64,000 nucleotides of DNA, taken from contig NZ_CP159258.1 in the NCBI RefSeq assembly GCF_040438925.1, positions 3,796,001 through 3,860,000 of the forward strand, given 5' to 3'. Shown piece after piece: positions 5,294 through 63,084 of this stretch. Numbering within the stretch: the first letter of the stretch is position 1; the number at the start of each line of letters is the position of its first letter. Made by a program: the position numbers and the translations under genes. The notes beneath the pieces are model-generated. The model was not told the origin of the DNA. It saw only the letters and a program-made list of their open reading frames with translations, and did no database searches. The DNA is from Pseudomonas sp. MYb327 (GTDB taxonomy: Bacteria > Pseudomonadota > Gammaproteobacteria > Pseudomonadales > Pseudomonadaceae).

Positions 5294-5423
5294 GACGATT
5301 GTCCTCGGGCCGGGTGAATTCCCGTTCTTTTTGTTTGTTGGTCTTTTGTGGAGAGCGCGACACATCAAGGCCAATCGCGCTCACCGCCAGATAACCGCGA
5401 GTCGCGCGCGAGGACAATCGAAT

Positions 5424-5446
5424 ATGGTTCCACGGTGTGGAACCAT
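5424..5446. promoter_or_regulatory. Candidate IclR-family operator
   Basis: A perfect inverted repeat: ATGGTTCCAC, three-base centre GGT, GTGGAACCAT. It lies about 130 bp upstream of the M20 gene start, the only long promoter region of the cluster. IclR-family regulators commonly bind short-spaced palindromes of this size, and an IclR gene closes this cluster. The pairing of site and protein is inference. Confidence 0.6.
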
Positions 5447-5492
5447 AGGGGCCGGCTTAAAGGAATGTCGACTGACACCCCGCAATCTCCTT

Positions 5493-5578
5493 TAGGAGCC
5501 GGCTTGCTGGCGATGGCGGTGTACCTATCAATATGGATGTCGACTGACACACGGCTATCGCCAGCAAGCTGGCTCCTA
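5493..5578. repeat. REP-type inverted repeat pair
   Basis: Arms 5493-5514 and 5557-5578 are inverted copies of TAGGAGCCGGCTTGCTGGCGAT with one mismatch. The right arm overlaps the last codons of the small membrane protein gene and supplies its TAG stop. A direct repeat ATGTCGACTGACAC occurs at 5465-5478 and 5537-5550, inside and just outside the element. Confidence 0.85.
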
Positions 5579-5905
5579 CAGGTCCGGGTTCAGGCGGCAG
5601 CCCTGGCGCTCGCCGATCCAAACGGCGCTATTACTGCGGCCCATGCCGCTGACGGTGATCCGCTTGCTGGCGCTGTCGTCGGTAAACCCACTGGCGGGCA
5701 ACCATTGCTTCACGTAGCCACGGCAATACTCGGCGTCGTTGTTCATCACATACCGGCACGAGCAATATTCCTTGGCGGTGTAGGCGCTGATGATGTCGGG
5801 GAACGCCCAAAGCGCCGAACGCTCGTGCCAGATCCAGCCGAGCAAGGCGATCAGCAGGATCAGCAACAGTGAGCGAATCGGTCGTCGCCTGATGAAACCG
5901 CTCAT
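5576..5905 (-). CDS. Small membrane-anchored protein of unknown function
   Basis: A 109-aa protein with an N-terminal basic segment, one transmembrane helix (about residues 12-28, SLLLILLIALLGWIW) and an external domain with paired cysteines (YCSCRYV, YCRGYVKQW, QGCRL). Its start overlaps the stop of the serine hydrolase gene (ATGA), so the two are co-translated and probably function together in the cell envelope. The stop codon lies within a REP arm. I do not recognise a named domain. Confidence 0.7.
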   Translation of the reverse strand: MSGFIRRRPIRSLLLILLIALLGWIWHERSALWAFPDIISAYTAKEYCSCRYVMNNDAEYCRGYVKQWLPASGFTDDSASKRITVSGMGRSNSAVWIGERQGCRLNPDL

Positions 5906-6996
5906 GGCTGCACCTTCCCGGCAAAGGCCCTGAGCGCGAGCTTGAGCAATTGGTTGTGCCGGTAGCTGCCGTCGCGATCATCGCCGTAGCGCACGATCAC
6001 CAGTTTTTCACTGGGGATCACATACATCGCCTGACCCCAATGACCCAGTGCCGCAAAGGTATCGACGGGCGCATCGGGCCAGGGTTGCGCGGCGCTATCT
6101 ACAGCACGATTGAGCCACCAGTGACCGCCGGGCACCGCATCATCCTGATGGGCACGATAGTGGGCGAAGGGTTCGCGATTGAAGGCAACCCAGTCTTTGG
6201 GCAGCAGTTGTTTATCGCCCCAGCGACCATCCCGCGCCATCAACAGACCGATGCGTGCCAGATCCCGAGCACTGAGGTAGGCATAGGACGAGGCGACGAA
6301 AGTCCCCGTGGCGTCGGTTTCCCAGGTCGCCCGGCGAATGCCCAGGGGTTCGAACAGCGCAGTCCACGGATAGTCCGCGTAGCGATCCTGCCCGACGAGG
6401 GTTTTCAGTGCGGCGGACAACAGATTGCTGTCACCGCTGGAATAGCGAAACGCCTGGCCTGGTGCAGCGTAGGTGTCGTGATCGGCAGTGAACGCGGCCA
6501 TGTCCGAGTGACCACGGGTGTAAAGCATGGCCACCACCGAGGATTTAAGCGGCGCGTATTCGTAGTCTTCCTGCCAGTGGAGACCGGAGGCCCAGTGCAG
6601 CAGGTCGGCCATGGTCATGTCGGCGTGTTTTTTCAGGGGCGGGTAGAATTTGGCCACTGGATCCTGAAGCTTGAACAAACCTTCGCCATACGCCACGCCG
6701 AGGACCGTAGCCATCAGGCTTTTGCTTATGGACCAGGTGAGGTGCGGGGTTTCAGCGGTGGTCGGCCCGGCATAGCGCTCGTAGATCAACCGACCATCGC
6801 GGATGACCAGCAAGGCGTCGGTGCGGATGCCTTGGCGGGTGGCGTCGTTGCGGGGTGGGAAGACGTAGCTTTCCAGAGCTTGAAGCGCTGGACCGGTGTC
6901 GACCGGGTCGGTTTGCCATTGTTCGGCAGGCCAGTTTTCGGCGTGGGCCGTGAGGCTGAGCAGTATCAGGAAAAACAGCGACAAGCCTCTGGCCAT
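5902..6996 (-). CDS. Serine hydrolase, beta-lactamase/penicillin-binding-like
   Basis: A 364-aa exported enzyme of the class C beta-lactamase/D,D-peptidase superfamily. It has a signal peptide ending TAHA, the nucleophile motif S-I-S-K (Ser89-Lys92) in TWSISKSLMAT, and a Tyr185-Ser-Ser in RYSSGDS matching the YxN/YSS position. Near the C terminus, 'ALGHWGQAMYVIPSEKLVIV' takes the place of the HxG/KTG strand. Esterases and amide hydrolases of this superfamily share the same motifs, so the substrate is open. It overlaps the downstream small membrane protein gene by four bases. Confidence 0.82.
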   Translation of the reverse strand: MARGLSLFFLILLSLTAHAENWPAEQWQTDPVDTGPALQALESYVFPPRNDATRQGIRTDALLVIRDGRLIYERYAGPTTAETPHLTWSISKSLMATVLGVAYGEGLFKLQDPVAKFYPPLKKHADMTMADLLHWASGLHWQEDYEYAPLKSSVVAMLYTRGHSDMAAFTADHDTYAAPGQAFRYSSGDSNLLSAALKTLVGQDRYADYPWTALFEPLGIRRATWETDATGTFVASSYAYLSARDLARIGLLMARDGRWGDKQLLPKDWVAFNREPFAHYRAHQDDAVPGGHWWLNRAVDSAAQPWPDAPVDTFAALGHWGQAMYVIPSEKLVIVRYGDDRDGSYRHNQLLKLALRAFAGKVQP

Positions 6997-7078
6997 GGTA
7001 GGAGCTCTTGGAAATAAACCTGCTGAGCCTAGCCGAGGTTGATGACAGTCCCGGGATCTGTGCTGTCAATGAGGCCGT

Positions 7079-13278: not shown

Positions 13279-13469
13279 AATTTCGTTTAATTGCGAAATC
13301 GCAATATCAGATGACGCCGTAGGACCTTGTAGGCAAACTCTGAATCTCGCTTTTGGGCACTTTGATGCCTTGTTGCGCTTTTCTTCGAAGGGATACTCTC
13401 CGGACGTCGCTGACCTTTCAGCGATCGGGTGTGGTAACCCGGTGAAACCAGCGCAACAGCATCAACATC

Positions 13470-13598
13470 ATGAACACTGGCGTTCTGCCTGTGATCTTGA
13501 GTTATGGCGGCTGTGCGTGGGACGTCTTCGGGCGTGCCGGTTTCCTTGGTTCCCGGTTTACCACCCTGCGTACAGCTGCCACCCCTTTCGTGTGGTAA
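13470..13598 (+). CDS. Putative 42-aa peptide upstream of the DUF3077 gene
   Basis: An uninterrupted 42-codon frame, starting MNTGVLPVILSYGGCAWDVF and ending ATPFVW, stops 36 bases before the DUF3077 start. The composition is protein-like (Gly, aromatic, few rare codons), but there is no clear Shine-Dalgarno. The ten bases GTGTGGTAAC that contain its stop codon also occur at 13429-13438, just before it. This suggests either a duplicated module or a structured leader RNA. The DUF3077 start may depend on its translation. Confidence 0.4.
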   Translation: MNTGVLPVILSYGGCAWDVFGRAGFLGSRFTTLRTAATPFVW

Positions 13599-13634: not shown

Positions 13635-13940
13635 ATGAGCAAAACCAATCCGCCCTCACCCTCAGAACTCAAAACCATCGGCTTCACCCCTTTCATTTAC
13701 TGCTCAGACCAGCCGCTGTTTCACGTAAGCCGCGGCGTGCCCCTCGCCGAAGCATTATCTCAAGCCTCCAACCTGCTCTTCCTCGCAAAGGAACTCACCC
13801 TCGACGCCGCCTACGCCAAAGACACCGACCGCCACGCCTGGGCCGCGCATTACCTGACGGCGATGAGCAAAGCGGTGATTGATGATGTGGCGAAAGTGCT
13901 GGATCGAGGGCCTGATCGCAAAGGCAAGCAAGCCAAATAG
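13635..13940 (+). CDS. DUF3077-type small protein
   Basis: A 101-aa soluble protein with 'HVSRGVPLAEALSQASNLLFLAKELTLDAAY' and 'AWAAHYLTAMSKAVIDDV', a pattern typical of the small pseudomonad DUF3077 proteins. AGGAG lies seven bases before the ATG. Function unknown. A hairpin terminator follows. The long leader (13279-13634) and the 42-codon frame within it hint at post-transcriptional control. Confidence 0.8.
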   Translation: MSKTNPPSPSELKTIGFTPFIYCSDQPLFHVSRGVPLAEALSQASNLLFLAKELTLDAAYAKDTDRHAWAAHYLTAMSKAVIDDVAKVLDRGPDRKGKQAK

Positions 13941-21403: not shown

Positions 21404-22663
21404 ATGACGCCTTCTCCCGCGCAGTATTTCGTTCCCAGCCTGATCGCCATTGCCCTGGCCAGCGCCGCCCTGCCCGCACACGCCGAGGAATCCGGTTTCG
21501 TCGAAGGCGCCAAGGTCAACCTGAACCTGCGCAACTTCTACATCAATCGTAACTTCACCAATCCGACCAAGACCCAGGGCAAGGCTGAAGAGTGGACGCA
21601 GAGCTTCATCCTTGACGCCAAGTCCGGATTCACTCAAGGCGTCGTCGGGTTCGGAATGGACGTACTGGGGCTGTACTCGGTGAAGCTCGATGGCGGCAAA
21701 GGCACTGGCGGTACGGCACTGCTGCCGCTGGACAGTGATGGTCGTCCGGCCGACAACTTCGGTCGCACCAACGTGGCGTTCAAGGCCAAGCTGTCGCAGA
21801 CCGAAGCGAAGGTGGGCGAATGGATGCCCGTGCTGCCGATCCTGCGTTCGGACGACGGTCGTTCACTGCCACAAACCTTCCGTGGCGGTCAGATTACCTC
21901 GAAGGAAATCGACGGCCTGACGCTCTACGGCGGCCAGTTCCGCCAGAACAGCCCCCGCGACGACAGCAGCATGGACGACATGTCGATGACCGGCAAAGCG
22001 GCGTTCACCTCGGACCGCTTCAACTTTCAGGGCGGCGAATATCTGTTTAACGAAAAGCGCACCCAGATCGGTGTGTGGAACGCCGAACTCAAAGACATCT
22101 ACAGCCAGCAATTCATCAACCTGACCCACAGCCAACCGATCGGCGCCTGGACTCTGGGCGCCAATCTCGGTTTCTTCTATGGCAAGGATGATGGCAGCGC
22201 CCGGGCCGGCGAGCTGGACAACAAAACCATGTACGGCCTGCTCTCGGCCAAATACGGCGGCAACACCTTCTACGTCGGCCTGCAAAAACTCACCGGCGAC
22301 AGTCCTTGGATGCGAGTCAACGGCACCAGCGGCGGCACTTTGGCCAACGACAGTTACAACTCCAGCTACGACAACGCCCGGGAAAAATCCTGGCAAGTGC
22401 GTCACGACTACAACTTCGTCGCCGTGGGTGTCCCGGGCCTGACCCTGATGAACCGCTATATCAGCGGCGATAACGTGCACACCGGCACGATTACCGATGG
22501 CAAGGAATGGGGACGTGAAAGTGAACTGACCTACACCGTACAGAGCGGTGCGCTGAAAGACCTGAACGTAAAATGGCGCAACTCGACCATGCGCCGCGAC
22601 TACAGCAACAACGAGTTCGATGAGAACCGCCTGATCATCAGCTATCCGATTAGCCTGCTTTAA
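21404..22663 (+). CDS. OprD-family outer-membrane porin
   Basis: A 419-aa OprD-family substrate-specific porin. The signal peptide ends LPAHA; the mature protein begins EESGFVEGAKVNLNLRNFYI, then 'QSFILDAKSGFTQGVVGFGMDVLGLYSVKLDGG', the usual 'RSDDGRSLPQTFRGGQI' loop, and a C-terminal 'NRLIISYPISLL' strand. The family forms 18-stranded monomeric channels for amino acids or aromatic and organic acids. The ATG at 21404 is preferred over the longer frame because it starts the signal peptide. Because of the PcaR box it may admit 4-hydroxybenzoate or protocatechuate; this is inference. Confidence 0.9.
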   Translation: MTPSPAQYFVPSLIAIALASAALPAHAEESGFVEGAKVNLNLRNFYINRNFTNPTKTQGKAEEWTQSFILDAKSGFTQGVVGFGMDVLGLYSVKLDGGKGTGGTALLPLDSDGRPADNFGRTNVAFKAKLSQTEAKVGEWMPVLPILRSDDGRSLPQTFRGGQITSKEIDGLTLYGGQFRQNSPRDDSSMDDMSMTGKAAFTSDRFNFQGGEYLFNEKRTQIGVWNAELKDIYSQQFINLTHSQPIGAWTLGANLGFFYGKDDGSARAGELDNKTMYGLLSAKYGGNTFYVGLQKLTGDSPWMRVNGTSGGTLANDSYNSSYDNAREKSWQVRHDYNFVAVGVPGLTLMNRYISGDNVHTGTITDGKEWGRESELTYTVQSGALKDLNVKWRNSTMRRDYSNNEFDENRLIISYPISLL

Positions 22664-22676
22664 ACCTCAACTTGAA

Positions 22677-22713
22677 AAAACCGCATCGTGTGTTATTCCA
22701 CGATGCGGTTTTC
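22677..22713 (+). terminator. Terminator after the porin gene
   Basis: AAACCGCATCGTG and CACGATGCGGTTT form a 13-bp stem with an 8-base loop, followed by TCT. Confidence 0.88.
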
Positions 22714-22811
22714 TGTAACAAGCTTTTCTCACACGTCTTACACCCGCTACGAAAACAACACGCCTGCTTCATGCCCATCTCAAACAAAAAAACGACGTAA
22801 CTTTAACCGCT

Positions 22812-23327
22812 TTAATCCGCAATATTTAACGAGAACGCGTTACATCTAAAATTAGTTTCCTTACCTCCATCCTGCACACTACCTTTGAAGCTAAACGACA
22901 TTTGACCATCAATTGAGTTTTCTGTAGCTTCCCTAATGGTTAACGTACCCACCGGATTAAAACTCTCCGGAGTTTGAATACCCTCCAACTTAAACCTGAT
23001 ATTCACTTCAGTAAGCGCATCTGAAATAGCATAAGCTTTACCCGTCTCCAGTTCATCACCAGAGATACGCAAGTATCCCTTTTCATACGTGACATCCAAA
23101 AAGAACCCAACCACATCTGGATTCTTTCTACTCCAGATAAAATCCAGGGATTTCGACTCAATCGTTTCGACAAACTCACCGCCCACTGTGATATCTACGT
23201 GCATTCTCCCTTTAACAGGCACCAACGGAACCTCTCTTCCGGACAAAATAACTTTCACAGGCTTGCCATCCTCATAAACAACCCGCTCATCTTCACCAAC
23301 GCTCAACTTACCGGCCTTAGCACTCAT
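22812..23327 (-). CDS. Hypothetical protein, AT-rich orphan
   Basis: A 171-aa soluble beta-rich protein with no signal peptide; I do not recognise a family. Features: 'SVGEDERVVYEDGKPVKVILSGREVPLVPVKG' and repeated strand-like segments ('IREATENSIDGQMSFSFKG'). Starting at 23327 is preferred because GGAGG lies five bases upstream; an ATG five codons earlier has a worse-placed site. Its base composition is clearly more AT-rich than its neighbours, and it sits between an intact porin gene and a porin relic. Recent acquisition is likely. No partner gene is adjacent. Confidence 0.6.
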   Translation of the reverse strand: MSAKAGKLSVGEDERVVYEDGKPVKVILSGREVPLVPVKGRMHVDITVGGEFVETIESKSLDFIWSRKNPDVVGFFLDVTYEKGYLRISGDELETGKAYAISDALTEVNIRFKLEGIQTPESFNPVGTLTIREATENSIDGQMSFSFKGSVQDGGKETNFRCNAFSLNIAD

Positions 23328-23524
23328 CACAGCCTCCGACATTTAAAAAATCAAACTTCCTTAAACACCAGAAAACTTTAATACCAACGACCCCCTCAAA
23401 CAACTGGCATATATGACAGGTTGACATTCAATATATCCATGCGCACTTTGAACGGTTGCACATTGCAAAACCTTCAAATAACTTTTCAAAGTAAACGTTA
23501 TTGCCAACCGAGGTAATGTGGACG

Positions 23525-23640
23525 GAGGACATGCTCCACGCTCAGCGGTGGAAAGGATTGGGGGGGGGGGGTGAAATTGGGGGCTACACCGAACAGAGCG
23601 GCGCGCTGGAGGACTTGAACCAAATTCGATGAGAACGCCG
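23525..23640 (+). pseudogene. Decayed 3' fragment of an OprD-family porin gene
   Basis: The stretch aligns with the 3' part of the intact porin. GGCTACACCGAACAGAGCGG, then CGCGCTGGAGGACTTGAACC, matches the porin's TACACCGTACAGAGCGGTGC, GCTGAAAGACCTGAAC. TTCGATGAGAAC and GTGGAAAGGATTGG also match the porin's TTCGATGAGAAC and GATGGCAAGGAATGG. Deletions and a run of 12 G (23560-23571) break the frame. It is a remnant, 0.9 kb downstream of the intact gene and on the same strand. Confidence 0.7.
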
Positions 23641-23675
23641 AAGGCAGCCTCAGCATTGACGCAGTATCAACGGCC

Positions 23676-23772
23676 GCTTCGCCGGCAAGCCGGCGTCTAC
23701 CGGCATCGTGGATGGCTGCGAATTGTGAGTTCGCAGCCATCCATTGTGTAGGCGCTGGCTTGCCAGCGAAGG
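23676..23772. repeat. REP pair enclosing a strong hairpin
   Basis: Outer REP arms (CGCCGGCAAGCCGGCGTCTAC and GTAGGCGCTGGCTTGCCAGCG) flank a perfect 13-bp hairpin, GGATGGCTGCGAA (23710-23722) with TTCGCAGCCATCC (23730-23742) and a 7-base loop. It lies downstream of pcaC on its strand. Confidence 0.75.
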
Positions 23773-23801
23773 CGTCCGTTAAATCAACGAAAAATCACGG
23801 A

Positions 23802-24194
23802 TCACTCCCGCGATTCAACCCCCAACTCATCCCACACCGACTCAGCCAGGTGGAACGTTGCGTTGGCCGCGGGAATGCCGCAGTAGATCGCACTCTGCAT
23901 GATCACTTCCTTGATCTCCCCACGGCTCACGCCGTTGTTGGCGGCGGCGCGCAGGTGCAGTTTGAGTTCACCCTCGCGGTTCATGCCGATCAACATGGCG
24001 ATGGTGATCAGGCTGCGGGTATGGCGCGGCAGGCCCGGACGGGTCCAGATGTCACCCCAGGCGTGGCGGGTGATCATTTCCTGGAACTCCGAGTTGAACT
24101 CGGTCAGGGTGGTCAGGCTACGGTCGACATGGGCGTCGCCCAGCACCGCGCGACGGACGTTCATGCCCTCGTCGTAACGTTGTTTCTCGTCCAC
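23802..24194 (-). CDS. pcaC: 4-carboxymuconolactone decarboxylase
   Basis: A 130-aa protein of the carboxymuconolactone decarboxylase family, converting 4-carboxymuconolactone to 3-oxoadipate enol-lactone. 'MNVRRAVLGDAHVDRSLTTLTEFNSEFQEMITRHAWGDIWTRPGL' and 'RSLITIAMLIGMNREGELKLHLRAAANNGVSRGEIKEVIMQSAIYCGIPAAN' are typical. I start it at GTG 24194, which gives the family length and has AAGGGGA upstream; the longer frame runs into pcaD. It is the last gene of the pca cluster, 10 bases after pcaD. Confidence 0.95.
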   Translation of the reverse strand: MDEKQRYDEGMNVRRAVLGDAHVDRSLTTLTEFNSEFQEMITRHAWGDIWTRPGLPRHTRSLITIAMLIGMNREGELKLHLRAAANNGVSRGEIKEVIMQSAIYCGIPAANATFHLAESVWDELGVESRE

Positions 24195-36041: not shown

Positions 36042-36145
36042 ATTGCTGCCAATTCCTGTAATTGTAAAATCATCGGGCAAAAAAAGGGGCAACCGAAGTT
36101 GCCCAAAATGCCTTGCGTGCTCATTGCATCCAGAATGACCTGCGG

Positions 36146-36256
36146 TTATTTCCGCTTGTGCGAATCCTTCCAGATAAAAAATCCGAACCCTGCAAAAAAT
36201 ACAAACATGAGGCTGACAGTCAGCACTCCGGCGATCACCACGTTGTCGAAAAACAT
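36146..36256 (-). CDS. ccoM: Probable CcoM subunit of cbb3 cytochrome oxidase
   Basis: A 36-aa single-pass membrane protein: MFFDNVVIAGVLTVSLMFVF, then FAGFGFFIWKDSHKRK. AGGAGA lies seven bases before the ATG. The Asp-containing N terminus, one helix (about 6-28) and the 'WKDSHKRK' tail match what I recall of CcoM, the small subunit that stabilises cbb3 oxidase in P. stutzeri. Support comes from two ANR/FNR boxes upstream (36322-36335 and 36371-36384), as expected for a low-oxygen oxidase component. It is not next to ccoNOQP, which is also normal for ccoM. The name remains a similarity-based inference. Confidence 0.68.
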   Translation of the reverse strand: MFFDNVVIAGVLTVSLMFVFFAGFGFFIWKDSHKRK

Positions 36257-36321
36257 GACGCGTCTCCTGTACTTGCCCTGTTGCGATGAAGCTAAGTTAA
36301 TCAAATGGGCAGGAGAAAATA

Positions 36322-41603: not shown

Positions 41604-41886
41604 GGGTCCGTCTCTTTTATTGTTATGGGGGGCTTCACTGCCACCGGGAACTTGCAATCTAGTCAGGCCCGCCCGGGCTGTCTGTAATTATTCGTAAAGC
41701 TGATACCCCACCATGGAAGCCAGCGCTGCCCATGCAACATGTTATTTCCAAACGCTCTAATGGCCATTCCAAAAAGACCAGGGATCAATTAGCCATCACG
41801 GCTTGCGTTCAGTGCATGGCTTCTATACTCCAAGGCATTCGCCAGCGCTCATTGCGCCGGCCAGGCAAATTAAGACGGGGCATGCG

Positions 41887-44103
41887 ATGGAGTGGCTTGG
41901 TCTGCATTTCATTACCGAGCTGCCAGAGAGTGGGCAGGTCATACTCAATTGCTTACATGACCCTTTTCTGGTGTTGCTGGCTTATCTGGTCGCCTGTGCG
42001 GGCAGCTTCGCCACCCTGGATATGGCCGATCGGCTTGTGCACGCTGAGAAACCCGCCTCCCAGCGACTCTGGCGTTGGGTCGGTGCCGGTTGTCTGTCGG
42101 GCGGGATCTGGGCCATGCATTTTATCGGCATGCTGGCGTTCGAGGCGCCGATCACTGTCCACTATCAACTTCCCGTCACGCTTGTCTCCCTGGTGATCGC
42201 CTTGATTACCGCGTGGTGGGCAATGCGCACCCTCAGCCTGCCTGCCCTTAATTTCATGCACTGCCTCAAGGCCTCGATCTGGATCGGCCTGGGCATTGCC
42301 ACCATGCATTACGTGGGCATGTCCGCCATGCGCTCGCAAGCGATCATCTATTACCAGCCCGCGTTGTTTGCCCTCTCTGTCGTGATCGCGATGGTTGCCA
42401 GCCTGGCGGCGCTGCTGCTGGCGAGCTATTTACGCAAGGGCGCCGGCATGCTCCATCAGCTACTCAAGTACAGTGCCAGCCTGGTGCTTGGGGCAGGCAT
42501 CGTCAGCATGCATTTCACCGGTATGGCCGCCTTCAACCTGGTGTTGCCCACCGGCAGCCTCCTGACGCTACCGGGGGAAAACAATCACCTGCAACTGGGT
42601 CTGACGGTCGCGGTCATGACTCTACTGATTATCGGGAGCAGCATCAGTGCCGCATTGGCGGACAAAAAACTGCAAAAAAAGGAACGCGACCTACAGCGGG
42701 TGAACTCGTTGCTCAGTCAGCTGGACCAGGCGCGTCTGTCGCTGCAGCAGGTTGCGCACTACGACGCCTTGACCAACCTGATCAACCGCCGCGGCTTCAA
42801 TCAAATCTTCGCCGAAAAGCTCGTCGAGAAGTCCCGCGAGGGTGGCATGCTCGCCGTGCTTTTCCTCGACATCGACCATTTCAAACGGATCAACGACAGC
42901 CTCGGCCATGACGCCGGCGACGAACTGCTCAAGGTGCTCGCCGACCACATCAAAGACTCCGTACGCAGCGACGAAGACGTGGTGGCGCGTTTCGGTGGCG
43001 ACGAGTTCTGCCTGCTCATCAACCTGCAAGATCGGGAAGAAGCTCGCCAGTTGGCCCAGCGCATCATGCTGAAAATGAAGGCGCCGATCGAGCTGGCCGG
43101 ACGGCGCATGGTAATGACCACCAGCATTGGCATCAGCCTGTTTCCGCAAGATGGCAGGACTTGCGAAGAGCTGCTGAAAAACGCCGACCTGGCGCTGTAC
43201 CAGTCCAAGGGCAACGGCCGTAACGGCCTGAATTTCTTCAGTGCCAATCTCAAGGTCCGAGCCACGCTGGAGCTGCAACTGGAAGAAGAACTGCGCCATG
43301 CGTTGCACGAAGACACCGGCCTGATGCTCTTTTACCAACCGATCTACGACCTTAAAACCGGTCAGGTCAGCAAACTTGAGGCATTGATTCGTTGGCAGCA
43401 CCCGATCCATGGATTTCTGACACCCGACCGTTTCATTGCCATCGCCGAGGCCAACGGCTTGATCGCCGAGTTGGACAACTGGGTGCTGCGAAAAGCTTGT
43501 GAAGATCTGGGCGAGCTGTCACGCCAGGGTTGCGAGGAGCTGAAGATTGCCGTGAACTGCTCGCCCCTGAACCTGGCGCGCGAAGATCTGGCCGATGAAA
43601 TCGAACAAGCGCTGCGCAACGCCGGGGTAGCGCCCGATCGGCTGGAGCTGGAGGTCACCGAAAATGCCCTGATGGGCAATATCGCCGATACGCTGGTGCT
43701 GCTGCGGCAGATTCGTGACCTCGGCGTCTCGCTGTCGATCGATGACTTCGGCACCGGCTATTCATCCCTCGCCTACCTCAAGCGCCTGCCGCTCAACACG
43801 CTGAAGATCGACCGCTCGTTTATCCAGGAAATCCCCAAATCCACCCAGGACATGGAAATCGTCCAGGCCATTATCGCCATGGCCCACACCCTGCATTTGC
43901 AGGTGGTGACCGAAGGTGTCGAAACGTTCGAGCAGTACCAGTTTCTGGAACGCCAGGGTTGCGACTTCGTTCAGGGTTACCTGCTCAGTCGCCCGGTGCC
44001 GCTGACTGATTTACATCCGGTCCTGAACGAAATTAACCAGCGCAAGCAGTCGTACACTGTCATGCCGTTGAGTCTGGTCCACGGTACATCTGCACTAATG
44101 TAG
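41887..44103 (+). CDS. nbdA: MHYT-GGDEF-EAL c-di-GMP enzyme, NbdA-like
   Basis: A 738-aa inner-membrane protein. The seven-helix MHYT sensor (residues 10-250) has three copies of the motif: 'WAMHFIGM', 'TMHYVGMSAM', 'VSMHFTGMAA', thought to bind a metal for gas sensing (O2, NO, CO). A GGDEF domain follows with an intact GGDEF (about 369-373) and a RxxD-like region, then an EAL domain with 'KLEALIRWQHP' (about 497) and 'DDFGTGYSSLAYLK'. NbdA of P. aeruginosa drives NO-induced dispersal but has a degenerate AGDEF. The name rests on synteny: rapA on one side, a 3-hydroxyisobutyrate dehydrogenase-like gene on the other. Confidence 0.85.
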   Translation: MEWLGLHFITELPESGQVILNCLHDPFLVLLAYLVACAGSFATLDMADRLVHAEKPASQRLWRWVGAGCLSGGIWAMHFIGMLAFEAPITVHYQLPVTLVSLVIALITAWWAMRTLSLPALNFMHCLKASIWIGLGIATMHYVGMSAMRSQAIIYYQPALFALSVVIAMVASLAALLLASYLRKGAGMLHQLLKYSASLVLGAGIVSMHFTGMAAFNLVLPTGSLLTLPGENNHLQLGLTVAVMTLLIIGSSISAALADKKLQKKERDLQRVNSLLSQLDQARLSLQQVAHYDALTNLINRRGFNQIFAEKLVEKSREGGMLAVLFLDIDHFKRINDSLGHDAGDELLKVLADHIKDSVRSDEDVVARFGGDEFCLLINLQDREEARQLAQRIMLKMKAPIELAGRRMVMTTSIGISLFPQDGRTCEELLKNADLALYQSKGNGRNGLNFFSANLKVRATLELQLEEELRHALHEDTGLMLFYQPIYDLKTGQVSKLEALIRWQHPIHGFLTPDRFIAIAEANGLIAELDNWVLRKACEDLGELSRQGCEELKIAVNCSPLNLAREDLADEIEQALRNAGVAPDRLELEVTENALMGNIADTLVLLRQIRDLGVSLSIDDFGTGYSSLAYLKRLPLNTLKIDRSFIQEIPKSTQDMEIVQAIIAMAHTLHLQVVTEGVETFEQYQFLERQGCDFVQGYLLSRPVPLTDLHPVLNEINQRKQSYTVMPLSLVHGTSALM

Positions 44104-44956
44104 AAGGGTCTTTTTCCAGGAAACCCTGGCCCCCGTGCAGTCGCATCAGTTGTGCGGCCAGGCCGCTGATCGGTGTTGCCGAACCTTGTTCGCGGGAAAA
44201 CTTCACCGCGGTGTCCAAGTCCTTGAGCAAGGTTCGCACGTGCCATTTGACCGGTTCGAAACGGCTCTCGGCCATTTGCGGAGCAAGGATCTGCAAGGGT
44301 TTTGAATCGGCAAAACCGCCGGCCAGCGCCTCGGCGATCAGGCTTGCATCAACGCCGGAGCGCTCCGCCAGCGCAACCACTTCGGCGATCACCAGTGCAT
44401 TGCAGGCGACGATCATCTGATTGCACGCCTTGGTCACCTGGCCGGCCCCGACAGGACCCATGTGCGTCACGCGTTGGCCAAGACTGAGCAAAACGGCTTT
44501 GACTCGCTCAAGGTCCGACGCAATACCACCGACCATGATTGCCAGGCTTCCCGCCTCGGCGCCGACAACGCCGCCGGAAACCGGCGCATCCAGCCAGCCC
44601 ATACCGGTTTTGCTGACAAGCGCTGTCGCCATTTCCCGCGTGGCGGTGGGCTCAAGACTGGAAAAGTCCACGAGCAATTGAGCTTTTTTGGCCCCCTCGA
44701 CAATGCCCGCCTTGCCGAAAACCACCTCGCGTACCACCGCCGTGTCCGCCAGACACAACATCACCACATCAGCGTGTTGGCACAGCTCGGCTGGAGTAGC
44801 GACCTGACGCGCACCCGCCTCCACCAGTGGCGCACATTTGTCCGGGTTACGGTTCCACACCGTCAGCGGATAGCCCGCCGCGAGCAAACGCCGGCACATC
44901 GGCAACCCCATGAGCCCTATTCCGGCGAACCCCAACGAAGGTAGCGTTGACATCAT
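44060..44956 (-). CDS. NAD(P)-dependent beta-hydroxyacid dehydrogenase
   Basis: A 298-aa protein of the 3-hydroxyisobutyrate dehydrogenase family. 'LGFAGIGLMGLPMCRRLLAAGYPLTVWNR' is the nucleotide-binding start (GxGxMG), 'DAPVSGGVVGAEAGSLAIMVGG' the substrate-binding signature, 'GAGQVTKACNQMIVACN' carries the catalytic Lys, and 'LLKDLDTAV' is conserved. The 3' end overlaps the 3' end of the c-di-GMP enzyme gene by 44 bases on the opposite strand. AAGGAGG precedes two tandem ATGs; either could be used. Confidence 0.9.
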   Translation of the reverse strand: MMSTLPSLGFAGIGLMGLPMCRRLLAAGYPLTVWNRNPDKCAPLVEAGARQVATPAELCQHADVVMLCLADTAVVREVVFGKAGIVEGAKKAQLLVDFSSLEPTATREMATALVSKTGMGWLDAPVSGGVVGAEAGSLAIMVGGIASDLERVKAVLLSLGQRVTHMGPVGAGQVTKACNQMIVACNALVIAEVVALAERSGVDASLIAEALAGGFADSKPLQILAPQMAESRFEPVKWHVRTLLKDLDTAVKFSREQGSATPISGLAAQLMRLHGGQGFLEKDPSTLVQMYRGPDSTA

Positions 44957-45154
44957 TTGGCCTCCTTTTGATTAAAGATCGCTGAATATTGGCCGATTCA
45001 TCATGACTTAGGAAAGGATTCCCCCGAGCGACGTTCAGGCCAAGGCGCTGACGCCCGGGACAAATACGCGCTGCTAAAAGACGCGATTTCTCATTCCGTG
45101 ACGGTTCGACGACTGCATGTCGGCCAACCAACCAGCCCAGGTACATGGCGAACA

Positions 45155-47362
45155 ATGACTTCCAAAAACAACCCGGCCACAGCAGTATCCGACCTGGCTT
45201 TGAGCCCTGCGGCGAACAGCCCTGCCCTGACACCGTCGAAGCCATTGCCGCCGTCACGCCCGCTGGCGACCCAGCAATACCTGTACTTCACCGAAACCAA
45301 CACCGACCGCATCCTCGATAACCTCGACGGCCTGCGTGACATGGTGTTCCCGCGCCCACCGCACCTCGATGGCGACAACGAACAGCACAACGATCAGGAA
45401 TTCCCGTCGGTGTGCCTGATCGGTCTGGGCCGATGCGGGTCGAACATTGCGCTGGATGTCGCGGAACTGGTGTACAACGCCCGCAAGTTCTACCTCAACG
45501 AATTCAACAACGAAGATCGCCTGTCGCCGGACAAACGCTACGCTGAAAAGGGCTACAGCCCGGCCCAGTGGATACGCAACAACCTGCGGCTGGGGCAGAA
45601 CAAAGCCACCAAACCGGTGTTTCTGGTCGAGCCTCTGGTGATGCTGGGCGACCTGGACAAAGACATCGCCGGTCGCATCCGCTTTTCACGCAAGGGCGAA
45701 AAAAGCGGCTTCCTGCGCGACTACAGCAAAATGAAAATCATGGACTTGTCGGAAGTCCACGCCGGTGGCGCCGGTAACGCGCCGATCCTCGGTCAGTACC
45801 TGGCGAAGATCATCCTGAACAAGGACACCCAGCGTTTCTCCAGCCCTGACTGGAAGATGATCCACTCGTACCTGATCGACAGCTGCGGCATCAAGGCCAA
45901 CCAGTCGCGCCTGTATTTCTCGATCTTCAGTGCTGGCGGCGGTACCGGTTCGGGCATGGCTTCCGAGTTCGGCCTGGCCCAGCAGCACTCGTACATGAAC
46001 AAAACGTTCGACACCAAGCCAGTGGACGAGCACGACAGCAAAAGCGGTCACTCCTTTGTTTTCGAGCCGATCTTCACCAGCGGAATCTGCGTGCTACCGA
46101 ACATTTCCGATCACCGCAGTGAAATGTCCGAGGCGCTGCACATCAACGCCGGTCGCCTTCTGTGCAAATACCTGTCGGAGGAATGGGATTTCTCCTACAA
46201 CTTCGCCAATGAAGACAGCAGCGAAGCCAGCGTCATGGGCCGTATCCGCCCATGGAACGCGATGATGCTGATCTCCAACGACATCATGCGCTACGCCGAA
46301 GAGAGCGATGACGGCAACATCCAGAACATTGATGTCAATGCGATGGAGAAGCACGCCAACCAATACATCTCGCAGCAGATCTTCAACATTCTGACGGCGC
46401 AAGCGGTCACGACTGACTACGACCAGAACTATTTCCGTCGTGCCGGCATCGACATCGGCGAAACCATTCGCCTGGACGCCAACGACCTGTTCATGAGTCT
46501 GGCCGGCCCGGTGGCGATTGCCTACGCCGAGTCCGTCGTACCGGAAACCCCGCCGCCGAGCAGCGACAAATTCAAGGTCTTCGAGAAAGAACCACAGCGC
46601 CTGAACATCGACGACCTGTTCTTCCGCTCCATCGACCTGCCGCACTTCAACAAAGTCACCCAGGCCATCGAAGGCATCAGCCTGCTGCCGATCGAGTCCA
46701 AGCGCTATCGGGCATCGCTGGAGCAGTACAAGAATTCGGGCTATGACGCGGCCGCCCTGCACGACCTGCACTTCTTCAAAAACTGCTCGTCGGTGGTGTC
46801 GATCGTTTCGCTGCCGAAAGACTACAAGCTGTCCTACATGGACCTGAACCGGTTGAAAACGCACCTCAACAACTTGTTCCCCAACACCACGCTCAAACGC
46901 TACGCCCTGGTAATCGGCGCCTCGGCCAACCTGTCGCTGACCACCCTGATCGCCAAGAGCCCGTGCCTGTCGGACGACTTCCTGACGCTGATCGTGGCTT
47001 TCATCAAGCGTTGCTTCGCGCGCAGTCCGTACCGTTTCGACGAGACGCTGGACAACTCGATGCTGGACTTCATCATCAATGAAGAATTCGACGAAGATCG
47101 CATCGATGACTTGCTCAATGAATTCGAGAACCCGGCGAAGATCCTCGATACCAACTGGTACGCGATCAAACCGATGTACGAGAAGAAGTACCGCGAGCTG
47201 ATCAACGACAAGGACAAATTCGTCTCGATCAACGACATCCGCCTGTCCCGGGATTGCGTGAAGAAAGCAATCAAATACCTGCGCGAGATTTACCGTCATC
47301 GCATTGGCAAGACCAAGGTCATTTCGCTGAATAACCATACCGGCAAGACTTTCTCGGTCTGA
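45155..47362 (+). CDS. Tubulin/FtsZ-like GTPase superfamily protein
   Basis: A 735-aa protein. After a Pro/Ser-rich, probably disordered N terminus (1-40), 'VCLIGLGRCGSNIALDVAELV' (about 87-107) has the shape of the tubulin/FtsZ first loop. 'FSAGGGTGSGMASEFGLA' (258-275) contains GGGTGSG, the tubulin signature that binds GTP phosphates. 'IRLDANDLFMSLAGPVAIAY' (about 438-457) is a possible counterpart of the FtsZ T7 segment. The C-terminal 250 residues match nothing I recognise. It most resembles the bacterial 'tubulin-like' (Tubulin_2-type) families. It stands alone, divergent from the dehydrogenase gene. The start at 45155 is chosen because the upstream frame (to GTG 45098) looks non-coding; no strong ribosome site is seen at either. 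Confidence 0.78.
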   Translation: MTSKNNPATAVSDLALSPAANSPALTPSKPLPPSRPLATQQYLYFTETNTDRILDNLDGLRDMVFPRPPHLDGDNEQHNDQEFPSVCLIGLGRCGSNIALDVAELVYNARKFYLNEFNNEDRLSPDKRYAEKGYSPAQWIRNNLRLGQNKATKPVFLVEPLVMLGDLDKDIAGRIRFSRKGEKSGFLRDYSKMKIMDLSEVHAGGAGNAPILGQYLAKIILNKDTQRFSSPDWKMIHSYLIDSCGIKANQSRLYFSIFSAGGGTGSGMASEFGLAQQHSYMNKTFDTKPVDEHDSKSGHSFVFEPIFTSGICVLPNISDHRSEMSEALHINAGRLLCKYLSEEWDFSYNFANEDSSEASVMGRIRPWNAMMLISNDIMRYAEESDDGNIQNIDVNAMEKHANQYISQQIFNILTAQAVTTDYDQNYFRRAGIDIGETIRLDANDLFMSLAGPVAIAYAESVVPETPPPSSDKFKVFEKEPQRLNIDDLFFRSIDLPHFNKVTQAIEGISLLPIESKRYRASLEQYKNSGYDAAALHDLHFFKNCSSVVSIVSLPKDYKLSYMDLNRLKTHLNNLFPNTTLKRYALVIGASANLSLTTLIAKSPCLSDDFLTLIVAFIKRCFARSPYRFDETLDNSMLDFIINEEFDEDRIDDLLNEFENPAKILDTNWYAIKPMYEKKYRELINDKDKFVSINDIRLSRDCVKKAIKYLREIYRHRIGKTKVISLNNHTGKTFSV

Positions 47363-47382
47363 TCCAGTACCGAGTCGCCCCA

Positions 47383-47446
47383 ATCGCTGGCAAGCCAGCT
47401 CCTACACGAACTGTGTAATCTCTGTAGGAGCTGGCTTGCCAGCAAT
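47383..47446. repeat. REP-type inverted repeat pair
   Basis: Arms 47383-47406 and 47423-47446 (24 bp, one mismatch) separated by only 16 bases, directly after the tubulin-like gene. It could form a long hairpin in the 3' UTR. Confidence 0.88.
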
Positions 47447-47643
47447 GGCGTTATTGCTGCACCGCACCAGTTCCTTACCAACATCCAGAAACAATTAAGC
47501 AGCCCTCAAGTTGCTCTCTTAACTGTTCCCGTTACGTTTACGTCACCGTGAGGCTGTAGCCTTTCTCTACGGCAAGGTGCCATCACGCTACTCGGCTACA
47601 CACTTTCAGTCGGCAAGCACGCGCACCAAAAAGGTGCTCACCA

Positions 47644-47949
47644 TCAAACCTGCGCTCTTTCCTGGATCATAATCCACGGCGAAACGACCACAGCCCACAG
47701 TTCCGGATCGCGTTCGAAGAGATCCAGCGCCCGCGTTTCAGACAGCTTGGCGACTTTGTCAGCGGCCAACCAGGCAGCCACTTTCTCGCCGTCATCCGTC
47801 GCCATGGCCTCCGCTGCTGCGATCAAATCCAGACCTGGGTCGACCCACAATAGGGCACCCTTGGCGAAGAACGGCTCCAACTCTTTCCAGGTAATAGATG
47901 CGGTTTCTCCAAGCAGCTTGGCATAGAGGGTGCTAGGTTCTTGATTCAT
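47644..47949 (-). CDS. DUF2288-type protein
   Basis: A 101-aa soluble protein: 'STLYAKLLGETASITWKELEPFFAKGALLWVDPGLDLIAAAEAMATD' and 'DPELWAVVVSPWIMIQE' are typical of DUF2288. Start at 47949. Function unknown; neighbours give no hint. Confidence 0.82.
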   Translation of the reverse strand: MNQEPSTLYAKLLGETASITWKELEPFFAKGALLWVDPGLDLIAAAEAMATDDGEKVAAWLAADKVAKLSETRALDLFERDPELWAVVVSPWIMIQERAQV

Positions 47950-60373: not shown

Positions 60374-61609
60374 GTGGCTAGCAACAAGCACATTCCCCAG
60401 GTTAGAAACCCGCCGTCAGGGGACGGGCATCACATCAGCTACCGCGACATGACCGCCACTGAACTGGCAGAACGCGAGGCCCGGCAAAACGCCCATGACG
60501 CGATGCTCGCCAGGCAAGCGGCATTCGAACGCAGCCGTCAGATCGCTCCGATCGCACAGGCGCCCGTCCGGGCCGGATGCGTCTTCGCCAAATCCTGCAA
60601 CCTGCCTGATGCGATCATCGATTACGCCAATCCCTCGGGCATGGTGCCCACCGACAGCCTTGAAGATTACGGCGAGATTGCATGGCTGGGAGCTCGCGAG
60701 GTAGATGAAAGCGGTCTGCTGAATCTACAAACGATCAGCGGCACCACCCTATCACTGGGCCTCGGTCAACTGGCCCTTCGCGCGCCGGCTCTCGCCGCTC
60801 CCGTCATAGGCGCAGGTGTTGCTCTCGGTACGGCTGCCGCCGCGACATTAACCGGGCTGGTCGCGCTGTTCTGGACGCCCACCCTGGGCGACAGCGCCCT
60901 CTACACCGAAGACCAACTGCGCGCCCTCAAACATGCCCGCACGCGTATGCGCCTGCAAATCGAACAGCGGGAGGACGGCAGCCTCAAGGGCTACGCCTTT
61001 TACACCGGCAAGAATCGTGATTGGGAAATGGTCGATGTGGTGCAGATCGCTTTGCGCGATAGCCAATACATAGCCGACCTCGGTGCAGGCATCGAACTGA
61101 TCTGGACCCCGGCATTAGACGCTTCCGACATCCTCGGCATCCCCAAACTGGAAGCCGCCCCGCAAGCCCCGCACATCTGGGTTTATCCGCCGACGAAACT
61201 GGCTGACGGGATTATCGTTAATCCGGTTTATCCGCCTGAGTACAAGGATTTCATTCTTGTGTTTCCGGTGGGGTCGGGGGTGAAGCCGGTTTATGTTGTG
61301 GTGAGCGTTTCTGGTAGAAAATTACCAAATCCAGATCACGATTATCACTCGGCACCCGAAACGGAAGAAATTACAGGCTTTTCAGGTCTGAAAGAGGCGA
61401 AAAGGAAAACCCCAAAACAAGGCGGTGGAGGCCTCCGGGAGAGGTGGACCGATGCCAAAGGTAGAAGGATTTATGAGTGGGACTCACTACATGGAGAACT
61501 CGAAGCTTATCGTGCAAGTGATGGAAGCCATCTAGGTTCATTCGACCACAAAACGGGCGAACAAATAGATCTACCAAAGAAAGATCGCAATATTAAAAGA
61601 TTTTTATGA
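60374..61609 (+). CDS. E3-type rRNase bacteriocin/effector with pyocin S domain
   Basis: A 411-aa toxin. The C-terminal ~90 residues are a colicin E3-type 16S rRNase: 'ERWTDAKGRRIYEWDSLHGELEAYRASDGSHLGSFD'. The catalytic set is intact: Asp370, His373, Glu377 and Arg405 match E3 D510, H513, E517, R545 in spacing. Upstream (about 175-315) is an S-type pyocin translocation-like domain, and a hydrophobic Gly/Ala-rich stretch lies at 125-168. There is no long coiled-coil or receptor-binding region. The start is GTG 60374 with AAGGA. The distal third is AT-rich compared with the rest, a sign of module exchange. The cognate immunity gene follows after 7 bases. Confidence 0.85.
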   Translation: MASNKHIPQVRNPPSGDGHHISYRDMTATELAEREARQNAHDAMLARQAAFERSRQIAPIAQAPVRAGCVFAKSCNLPDAIIDYANPSGMVPTDSLEDYGEIAWLGAREVDESGLLNLQTISGTTLSLGLGQLALRAPALAAPVIGAGVALGTAAAATLTGLVALFWTPTLGDSALYTEDQLRALKHARTRMRLQIEQREDGSLKGYAFYTGKNRDWEMVDVVQIALRDSQYIADLGAGIELIWTPALDASDILGIPKLEAAPQAPHIWVYPPTKLADGIIVNPVYPPEYKDFILVFPVGSGVKPVYVVVSVSGRKLPNPDHDYHSAPETEEITGFSGLKEAKRKTPKQGGGGLRERWTDAKGRRIYEWDSLHGELEAYRASDGSHLGSFDHKTGEQIDLPKKDRNIKRFL

Positions 61610-61616
61610 GGCAGAG

Positions 61617-61871
61617 ATGGGACTGAAAATAAGGTTGGATTGGTTCGATAAGACCACCGAAGTATTAGAGGGAAAGGAATACTCTGCCGATCTCGGCGAC
61701 GACGGCTCGATCATTGAAGCAATGGGTTTGATGGATGCTAACGAAATATACGATGGTGGATTTAATGTAGTAGATGCCTGGATTGCTAAGCTGCAGCCTC
61801 TTTTCAACCATCAAATCGACACCACCACTTTCGATTACCAAATAGCGTTTCGATATCGACAGGCATGGTGA
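61617..61871 (+). CDS. Colicin E3/cloacin-type immunity protein
   Basis: An 84-aa acidic protein: 'MGLKIRLDWFDKTTEVLEGKEYSADLGDDGSIIEAMGLM' and 'GFNVVDAWIAKLQPLFNHQIDTTTFDYQIAFRYR' follow the E3/cloacin DF13 immunity pattern closely, including the WFDK and FNHQID segments. It is expected to bind and neutralise the rRNase. Directly downstream of the toxin, seven bases apart. AT-rich. Confidence 0.9.
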   Translation: MGLKIRLDWFDKTTEVLEGKEYSADLGDDGSIIEAMGLMDANEIYDGGFNVVDAWIAKLQPLFNHQIDTTTFDYQIAFRYRQAW

Positions 61872-61876
61872 AGGAC

Positions 61877-61896
61877 GGTTTATGTGGTGGTGAGCG
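61877..61896 (+). repeat. Short duplicate of the toxin's pre-nuclease segment
   Basis: GGTTTATGTGGTGGTGAGCG matches the toxin gene at 61288-61307 in 19 of 20 bases. In the same frame it would encode VYVVVS, the sequence just before the toxin's nuclease domain. It lies between the E3 immunity gene and the next small gene, the position expected for a scar left by replacement of a toxin domain. Confidence 0.7.
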
Positions 61897-61931
61897 CGCC
61901 TCACCGCAGATCCAACCAGAAAGGCAGAACC

Positions 61932-62156
61932 ATGAAGCACCGAATTATGCGCGTTAAGAAGGGAGAGGATTTCCCTGTGTATGAAGGGGATATTTCAATC
62001 GCTTTAGCAAAACTAACAGTCATTATGGGTTGGATCGAAGATGAAGTCTGTCTGCATGATTACAGACTTACCGAGAGTCAAATCGTGGATATAGAAAAAG
62101 CTAGCTCGCTGGATTTGCCTAGAAATCTTGATTTGTATTTGACCTCACAAATTTGA
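61932..62156 (+). CDS. Small protein, possible orphan immunity protein
   Basis: A 74-aa protein, MKHRIMRVKKGEDFPVYEGD then ISIALAKLTVIMGWIEDEVCL and a C-terminal helix-rich part. AAAGGC precedes the ATG. Low GC like the immunity gene before it. Because the toxin-domain scar lies between them, I infer it is an immunity gene kept from an earlier toxin domain; the sequence alone does not prove this. Confidence 0.6.
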   Translation: MKHRIMRVKKGEDFPVYEGDISIALAKLTVIMGWIEDEVCLHDYRLTESQIVDIEKASSLDLPRNLDLYLTSQI

Positions 62157-62164
62157 GGTTCAGA

Positions 62165-62198
62165 AAAAACCCCGACCAGTCACCTGATCGGGGTTTTT
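62165..62198. terminator. Terminator between convergent genes
   Basis: AAAAACCCCGA and TCGGGGTTTTT form an 11-bp stem around a 12-base loop. It can serve both the bacteriocin unit and the leftward lipoprotein gene. Confidence 0.88.
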
Positions 62199-62216
62199 GT
62201 TTACCCGGCTTTCCGC

Positions 62217-62681
62217 TTAGTGCGAAACGCGGCTCGTGCCATCAACGGTAGCAATCCGCACACGCTCGCCAACACGGAACACTTCGTTTTCCTGAACCTG
62301 TTGCACGTAGGCGCGCATGCTGCCGTCGTCTTCGCGGACGGTGATTTCCACGCCCTGGGTGCGGGTCAGGCCTTCTTCGGCTGCGGAACCGACGAGGCCG
62401 CCGGCGACTGCGCCAATGACCGCAGCCACGATACTGCCCTTACCGCCACCGATGGCGCTGCCACCTACGCCACCCACCGCTGCACCGGCGAGGCCGCCGA
62501 TTGGGGTTTTGGTGCCTTCGATTTTCACCGGACGCAAGGCTTCGATGGTGCCCATGCGAATCGTCTGCACCCGACGCGCTTCGTCACGGGAATAGGAGTC
62601 ACCGGTCAAGCTCGATTGGCAGCCAGTGAGCAACATCGCCATCGTGGAAAAGGAAGCAACCAGCAGAACAGACTTACGCAT
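62217..62681 (-). CDS. Glycine-zipper lipoprotein (SlyB-like)
   Basis: A 154-aa outer-membrane lipoprotein. The signal 'MRKSVLLVASFSTMAMLLTGC' is followed by a glycine-zipper segment (about 65-105: 'GGLAGAAVGGVGGSAIGGGKGS' region) and a C-terminal beta domain ending 'RVRIATVDGTSRVSH'. The SlyB/17-kDa antigen family contributes to envelope integrity. Start 62681 with GGAG. Confidence 0.87.
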   Translation of the reverse strand: MRKSVLLVASFSTMAMLLTGCQSSLTGDSYSRDEARRVQTIRMGTIEALRPVKIEGTKTPIGGLAGAAVGGVGGSAIGGGKGSIVAAVIGAVAGGLVGSAAEEGLTRTQGVEITVREDDGSMRAYVQQVQENEVFRVGERVRIATVDGTSRVSH

Positions 62682-62847
62682 AGCATCAACTCCAAAGGAC
62701 AGGTAATCATTAAACTCCGCAGCTTGACGCCTGTCACGGCATCGCCGGGATAAAAATGGTTTCATTCAGTTCCAGTACAGGCGCTGCCGCAAACTGCCGG
62801 GCGAACGCGGCAAATTCAACGATCTGCGCTGCTGACTCAGGATTTTC

Positions 62848-63084
62848 ATGGATTACTTTATCATTGTCGTCACTACTGTTGCCGGACTGTACTTCCACTG
62901 GTGGCTATTTGTACGTATCAAACGCTGGATGGACCGCGATCTGGCGTTAGCCCTGGCCGGTCAGGATGAGCAGAAAAAAGCATTCATGCTCGAACGATTG
63001 GCGAGCGCGTATGCGCAGAAGATCAAGCGTCGAGATCTGCCGAAGTGGCTGGAGGCCGCTGCGGCAGGGTATCCCGATCGGTAG
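62848..63084 (+). CDS. Small membrane-anchored protein
   Basis: A 78-aa protein with one N-terminal TM (about 3-22, FIIVVTTVAGLYFHWWLFV) and a charged cytoplasmic tail (LERLASAYAQKIKRRDLPKWLEA). AGGA lies just before the ATG. It ends five bases before the convergent pdxH end. Conserved next to pdxH in pseudomonads as far as I recall; function unknown. Confidence 0.75.
   Translation: MDYFIIVVTTVAGLYFHWWLFVRIKRWMDRDLALALAGQDEQKKAFMLERLASAYAQKIKRRDLPKWLEAAAAGYPDR

Follow-up and report, generated by a model that had tools for sequence, protein, structure and literature searches.

The chromosome of Pseudomonas sp. MYb327 encodes a protein that is very likely of the FtsZl2 type, within the tubulin/FtsZ superfamily, and that probably has a role in the change from a swimming to a settled life. 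Its gene, here called Q (45155..47362, + strand; 735 aa), lies in the window, the stretch of 64,000 nucleotides that was analyzed. Two features suggest a role in the motile/sessile switch: a flagellar-type promoter motif upstream of Q, and recurrent neighboring genes for c-di-GMP enzymes. On balance, the evidence favors a functional link of Q to c-di-GMP and motility. Among the matches listed, no report in the open-access literature connects FtsZl2 with either.

The FtsZl2 family

Makarova and Koonin found FtsZl2 in 2010 through a search for the motif GGGTG(S/T)G, with PFL_1302 from P. fluorescens Pf-5 as type member (PMC2875224). In the excerpted text of that report, FtsZl2 has all of the nucleotide-domain motifs, including T7, along with a C-terminal region of about 300 aa predicted to be mixed α/β, and is predicted to form filaments. 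The same excerpts state that neither associated genes nor hints of a function were found, whereas the relatives of Q considered here have recurrent c-di-GMP enzyme neighbors and a sigma-28-type promoter motif. These features now suggest direct experiments on a family described without a functional clue. In the open-access literature searched, two papers mention FtsZl2 by name and one mentions PFL_1302.

Q matches the published description of PFL_1302, and the two very probably represent the same family. Shared features are occurrence in Pseudomonas and Marinomonas; the GGGTGSG sequence; motifs T1, T4, T6 and T7 (T6 and T7 being assigned by eye in Q); a large C-terminal region; and coexistence with a normal ftsZ, which is seen in Pseudomonas, Marinomonas, and other Proteobacteria.

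The Q reading frame begins with ATG (an alternative in-frame GTG at 45098 would yield 754 aa), and the gene is single-copy in its genome. Conservation of its motifs was judged on an alignment of 73 family members, 56–96% identical to Q. The T1-like loop GLGRCGSN (residues 90–97; 45422..45445, + strand), named by analogy with FtsZ, is invariant at G90 and residues 92–97 and nearly so at L91. The T3-like loop AGGAGN (residues 203–208; 45761..45778, + strand), invariant except for A206, falls in a region that is paired by hhalign with FtsZ GAGANPEVG. The T4 signature SAGGGTGSG (residues 259–267; 45929..45955, + strand) coincides with the Pfam Tubulin match (residues 255–270) and belongs to an invariant run, residues 259–270; GGGTGSG itself occupies residues 261–267, within SAGGGTGSGMAS. 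Two further invariant motifs were assigned by eye: T6-like SND (residues 374–376; 46274..46282, + strand), by comparison with FtsZ PND/PNE; and T7-like RLDAND (residues 439–444; 46469..46486, + strand), whose counterpart in the FtsZ of this genome is NVDFAD. In FtsZ, the acidic T7 stretch completes the active site of the next subunit. The initial annotation had described this reading frame, a first nucleotide loop, and the phosphate-binding signature from the sequence, and all three stand as described.

Across four close Pseudomonas loci, pN/pS is 0.04–0.12 for Q as against 0.20–0.30 for the neighboring GGDEF-EAL gene; across four more distant Pseudomonas loci it is 0.21–0.28 for Q.

Membership in the tubulin/FtsZ superfamily

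Just two Pfam families match Q at E ≤ 1: PF00091 (Tubulin; E 0.0035, 18.1 bits against a cut-off of 33) and PF13809 (Tubulin_2; E 0.0051, 16.5 bits against a cut-off of 27). Alignment of Q-family residues 80–460 to 31 FtsZ sequences with hhalign gives a score of 26.2, reached by none of 100 column-shuffled controls, with a weak E of 0.0076. Searches of NCBIfam (one irrelevant match, far under its cut-off) and of solved structures by sequence (one chance match, E 1.9) returned nothing else. The proposal that Q is a chromosomal tubulin/FtsZ-like protein is supported; the profiles of both suspected Pfam families score below their curated cut-offs.

Might GGGTGSG be incidental, and Q an unrelated nucleotide-binding fold? 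This is very improbable. The sub-threshold Pfam scores, the weak hhalign E (~0.007), and two AlphaFold2 models with mean pLDDT of 45 and 47, both below 50, speak for such a protein; against it, the two tubulin families are the sole Pfam matches, the N-terminal profile surpasses 100/100 controls, a separate part of the protein has FtsZ as its first structural match, and the excerpted 2010 text (PMC2875224) reports that the FtsZl2 type member has an HHpred match.

That separate part is the C-terminal half, which the initial annotation left unassigned. Beyond residue 450, the low-confidence models contain strands and helices. Structural comparison of residues ~433–592 (46451..46930, + strand) gives the FtsZ C-terminal domain as best match, weakly, and this segment is tentatively taken as an FtsZ-like C-terminal domain. 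The remaining ~140 residues stay unassigned: this extension (residues ~593–735; 46931..47359, + strand) is mostly helical in the low-confidence models, with pLDDT over 70 in part and a low tail. (Profile comparison of this half with FtsZ gave a score of only 10.1, a value that 93 of 100 shuffles reach, so the match to FtsZ made by eye lacks sequence support and was rejected.)

At another place in the genome, a single PF00091 match exceeds the cut-off; its frame of 401 codons (397 aa when counted from the first Met) is taken as ftsZ; Q would then be additional to the housekeeping gene, as anticipated. The two proteins share GTP-loop motifs, and FtsZ is the top structural match of the Q C-terminal half. 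They differ in size (397 versus 735 aa) and in the long insertions and C-terminal extension of Q, and the profile match between them is weak. (Another proteobacterium, G871, carries a second, weak PF00091 match besides a normal one: 33.1 bits, in a 194-codon frame at C13:2257-2679.)

A different relative, FtsZl1 (Tubulin_2, PF13809), shares with Q the FtsZ-like N-terminal domain and the Pfam match at E 0.0051, which for Q falls short of the curated cut-off (16.5 bits versus 27). As excerpted from the 2010 report, FtsZl1 contains a coiled coil and shares an operon with genes for vWA, kinase, and GTPase proteins, features not seen for Q; a 2023 survey of the superfamily, also in excerpt, sets Tubulin_2 proteins apart (PMC9871819). 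The initial annotation noted that such families have been proposed to act in membrane remodeling. The proposal exists; in the excerpted 2010 text it rests on FtsZl1 (PMC2875224), whereas Q fits FtsZl2. (The reviews section of that paper mentions a diguanylate phosphodiesterase beside an FtsZl1 gene in Pirellula.)

Distribution

Among 199 Pseudomonas genomes, 130 have a relative of Q. A sample of 194 genomes from the order contained 12 with a relative (two are Pseudomonas, MYb327 itself among them), and a sample of 369 from the class contained 2, of which one is again MYb327. By family, they are present in 29/48 genomes of f26 (Marinomonas, judging by protein names), 6/81 of f20, and 1/3 of f82. 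Three protein searches yielded 661, 648, and 645 matches, about 650 homologues; the best 120 of each include Rheinheimera, Cellvibrio, Celerinatantimonas, Agarivorans, and Thioalkalivibrio.

Could Q be a DNA-segregation or phage-positioning tubulin of the TubZ/PhuZ type, left behind in the chromosome? Membership in the superfamily and patchy occurrence between genera would fit. However, the chromosomal slot of Q is conserved in Pseudomonas, and neither 72,556 plasmid records nor 50,697 phage records contain a Q match (tblastn, E ≤ 1e-5); the viral contigs searched hold no confirmed relative, and PHROGs gave no match. Such an origin, already disfavored in the initial annotation, which saw no obvious TubZ or PhuZ, is barely credible. 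A defense or phage reading of Q was likewise rejected, with no match in PADLOC or PHROGs.

A sigma-28-type promoter motif

A sigma-28 (FliA)-type promoter motif, TAAAGATC-N11-GCCGATTC (44973..44999, + strand), lies 155 nt before the Q ATG. The excerpted source (PMC7286023) applies the FliA consensus TAAAGTTT-N11-GCCGATAA to P. fluorescens MFE01; the Q motif agrees with it at 12 of 16 positions and has the exact spacing. Nineteen Pseudomonas upstream regions display the conserved sequence TAAAG...GCCGATTC, spaced as in the FliA consensus.

Loci were compared by a core score, the number of matches at the 10 positions of TAAA-N15-GCCGAT; the Q site scores 10. So do 80/80 near-copies of the locus. 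The other 81 loci score 10 in 19 cases, 9 in 20, and lower in 42, as against none at 10 and 3 at 9 for the reverse strands of all 161 loci. Of the 44 loci in the main Pseudomonas clade, all but L200 (43) carry the motif. Conservation among 41 distinct sites is concentrated in the two boxes (0.995 and 0.90) relative to the spacer (0.60) and the flanks (0.52 and 0.50). Beyond the main clade, no motif was seen except a 9/10 match in L119. Random 450-nt windows from the same loci score 10 in 56/3220 cases and 9 in 126/3220, some of them overlapping true sites, so that a lone 9/10 match such as that of L119 means little.

The strict pattern TAAAG-N14-GCCGAT occurs three times in the genome, versus once for its reversed control; the other two sites apparently fall within genes, if each is assumed to sit at the center of its locus. 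Within the window and 400 kb of the same genome, the Q site alone scores 10/10. (Those 400 kb contain no match to a flagellin pattern, hence no known flagellar promoter entered the comparison.) Two other promoter types were considered and rejected for Q: sigma-54, with a candidate in 1 of 161 loci; and sigma-70, with a single site in 44000–47700, inside the gene, against 1.2 expected. Rfam, at gathering threshold, reported nothing at Q.

Neighboring c-di-GMP enzymes

Q had been described as standing alone. This is not supported: a c-di-GMP enzyme gene recurs on the same strand near Q, in addition to the conserved promoter motif. In the window, a gene encoding an MHYT-GGDEF-EAL protein by Pfam (41887..44103, + strand; ATG at 41887, frame open from a TTG at 41803) ends with a stop codon 1,051 nt ahead of the Q ATG. 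The 3-hydroxyisobutyrate-dehydrogenase-like gene that intervenes (44060..44956, − strand; Pfam NAD_binding_2 and NAD_binding_11) is regarded as a mere neighbor, outside the system.

The survey scanned 161 loci (the window, L002–L081, L112–L131, and L159–L218) with GGDEF and EAL profiles made from the window's own protein; distances were measured between open frames, stop to stop, rather than from start codons. Among the near-copies (L002–L081, 95–100% identical), 76 of 80 have a same-strand upstream GGDEF and/or EAL gene within 2 kb; in L027 this is an EAL-only fragment. For the phylogenetic tree, the 81 other loci were combined with 5 near-copies. Of these 86 loci, 58 have a same-strand GGDEF/EAL gene within 2.5 kb of Q, and wherever such an enzyme gene exists the nearest one is on the Q strand (58/58). 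The other 28 have none within that distance, including all six loci from f20 and both from f14.

The neighbors comprise four architectures in both gene orders: MHYT-GGDEF-EAL, upstream in 40 loci (counting the L027 fragment) and directly downstream in 2; Amt-PAS-GGDEF-EAL, downstream in 8 and upstream in 4 (counting L167, where the enzyme gene, 905 bp away, is broken in frame); NMT1-GGDEF, upstream in 2 and downstream in 1; and PAS-GAF-GGDEF-EAL, the second gene downstream in 1. These kinds were identified by Pfam on one example each, plus one downstream MHYT case, and otherwise by similarity clustering.

GGDEF matches number 35–62 in 18 of 19 genomes counted and 5 in the remaining one (G211). 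From these counts, chance alone would give a same-strand GGDEF gene to ~1.4% of genes at distances up to 350 bp, and to ~3.4% at distances up to 2.2 kb. Six of eight clades hold at least one enzyme locus, for a rough binomial P of 2e-8 at 3% per clade or 2e-5 at 10%, given clades drawn by eye after seeing the data and a lenient "at least one member" criterion. A single clade of the three NMT1-GGDEF loci is rejected (p-AU 5e-79); a single clade of the MHYT loci is rejected too, in part trivially, because enzyme-less loci nest among them.

Within the main Pseudomonas clade, adjacency represents one inherited arrangement, since 17 of 20 Q-less genomes inspected (from 38 with the MHYT protein) keep the MHYT gene together with DUF2288 and livK. 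Presence of the MHYT protein, defined as an N-terminal match over 200 bits, is associated with that of Q across 199 Pseudomonas genomes: both in 106, Q only in 24, MHYT only in 38, and neither in 31 (Fisher p 1e-4, ignoring relatedness). Four loci (L128, L197, L214, and L218) keep the promoter motif with no enzyme nearby, which most simply makes it Q's own promoter.

Some of these findings would also fit Q as an independent tubulin-like polymer, active in cell shape, envelope remodeling, or division tuning, with the enzymes placed nearby through regulating the same life phase or occupying permissive loci rather than through a physical partnership. The motif persists where the enzyme is absent nearby; among the 199 genomes, Q occurs alone in 24 and the MHYT protein alone in 38; and the diversity of architectures is as expected if any c-di-GMP gene suffices. 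The recurrence of same-strand adjacency in separate clades and in both gene orders argues the other way, and we consider independence possible, if rather unlikely.

Several arrangements at these loci deserve mention. In four Q-less loci (L220, L221, L223, and L226), roughly 4.5–5 kb of other DNA separates the MHYT gene from DUF2288, and this position may be an exchange site. L119 contains, between Q and its GGDEF-EAL gene, a 678-codon frame (5004-7037, − strand) with gene-like codon-position GC, an apparent membrane anchor near the start (by eye), and no Pfam match. A 590-aa "gene" following the enzyme in L123 was dropped, as it overlaps a better-looking gene on the opposite strand.

A model for Q function

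The model that we prefer is as follows. Q would bind and hydrolyze GTP and, most likely, polymerize head-to-tail like FtsZ, serving the motile-to-sessile switch rather than cell division. Its expression in the main Pseudomonas clade would accompany that of the late flagellar genes and start, through FliA, at a sigma-28 promoter belonging to Q. The polymer, perhaps located at the pole or division site, would position or tune a partner c-di-GMP enzyme, or else assemble under a c-di-GMP signal. The presumed partner is MHYT-GGDEF-EAL here, and Amt-PAS-GGDEF-EAL or NMT1-GGDEF in relatives. Taken whole, this account of a polymerizing, FliA-made GTPase tied to a c-di-GMP enzyme has about an even chance of being correct. 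Several results count against it: the 28 loci with no enzyme gene in range, the single inherited arrangement behind adjacency in the main clade, the separate occurrence of Q and the MHYT protein in some genomes, the near-restriction of the promoter motif to the main clade, the low confidence of both structural models, and the C-terminal profile that fails to match FtsZ.

The scaffold mechanism is drawn by analogy. In the excerpted sources, the diguanylate cyclase YfiN works with FtsZ (PMC4992967), the c-di-GMP enzyme DmxA acts at the division site (PMC11255338), and FliA is reported to affect c-di-GMP. YfiN and DmxA provide a model, a diguanylate cyclase with an FtsZ-based structure, for how Q would work. 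Their partner is division FtsZ or the divisome, whereas a dedicated tubulin-like protein is proposed for Q; if the link holds, c-di-GMP signaling would have in Q a cytoskeletal protein of its own.

Alternatively, Q might be a switch or receptor for GTP or a guanine second messenger that forms no filaments. Its guanine-nucleotide loops are invariant, its neighbors use GTP or c-di-GMP, and filaments of Q are themselves a prediction. The T7-like acidic stretch is invariant as well, however, and the 2010 authors, as excerpted, predicted filaments for FtsZl2 (PMC2875224); a switch of this kind seems improbable.

The preferred polymer model can be extended, more tentatively, to the family. FtsZl2 might constitute a tubulin cytoskeleton dedicated to the motile-to-sessile transition. 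Driven by GTP, and in Pseudomonas made together with the flagellum, its polymer would act, in several gammaproteobacterial groups, as a scaffold onto which different membrane c-di-GMP enzymes could be fitted; we rate this broader proposal as a serious possibility at somewhat less than even odds. If true, an FtsZl2 polymer would couple cell architecture to second-messenger output.

Other features of the window

G+C content dips to 0.51–0.52 at 22001–24000 and 61001–63000, compared with ~0.60 around. The PhrS small RNA (36078-36295, − strand) was identified by Rfam at 190.5 bits. A C4 antisense RNA with its a1/b1 target motif (13393-13586, + strand), an element known from phages, lies ~31 kb from Q and just upstream of a 101-aa ORF (13635-13940).
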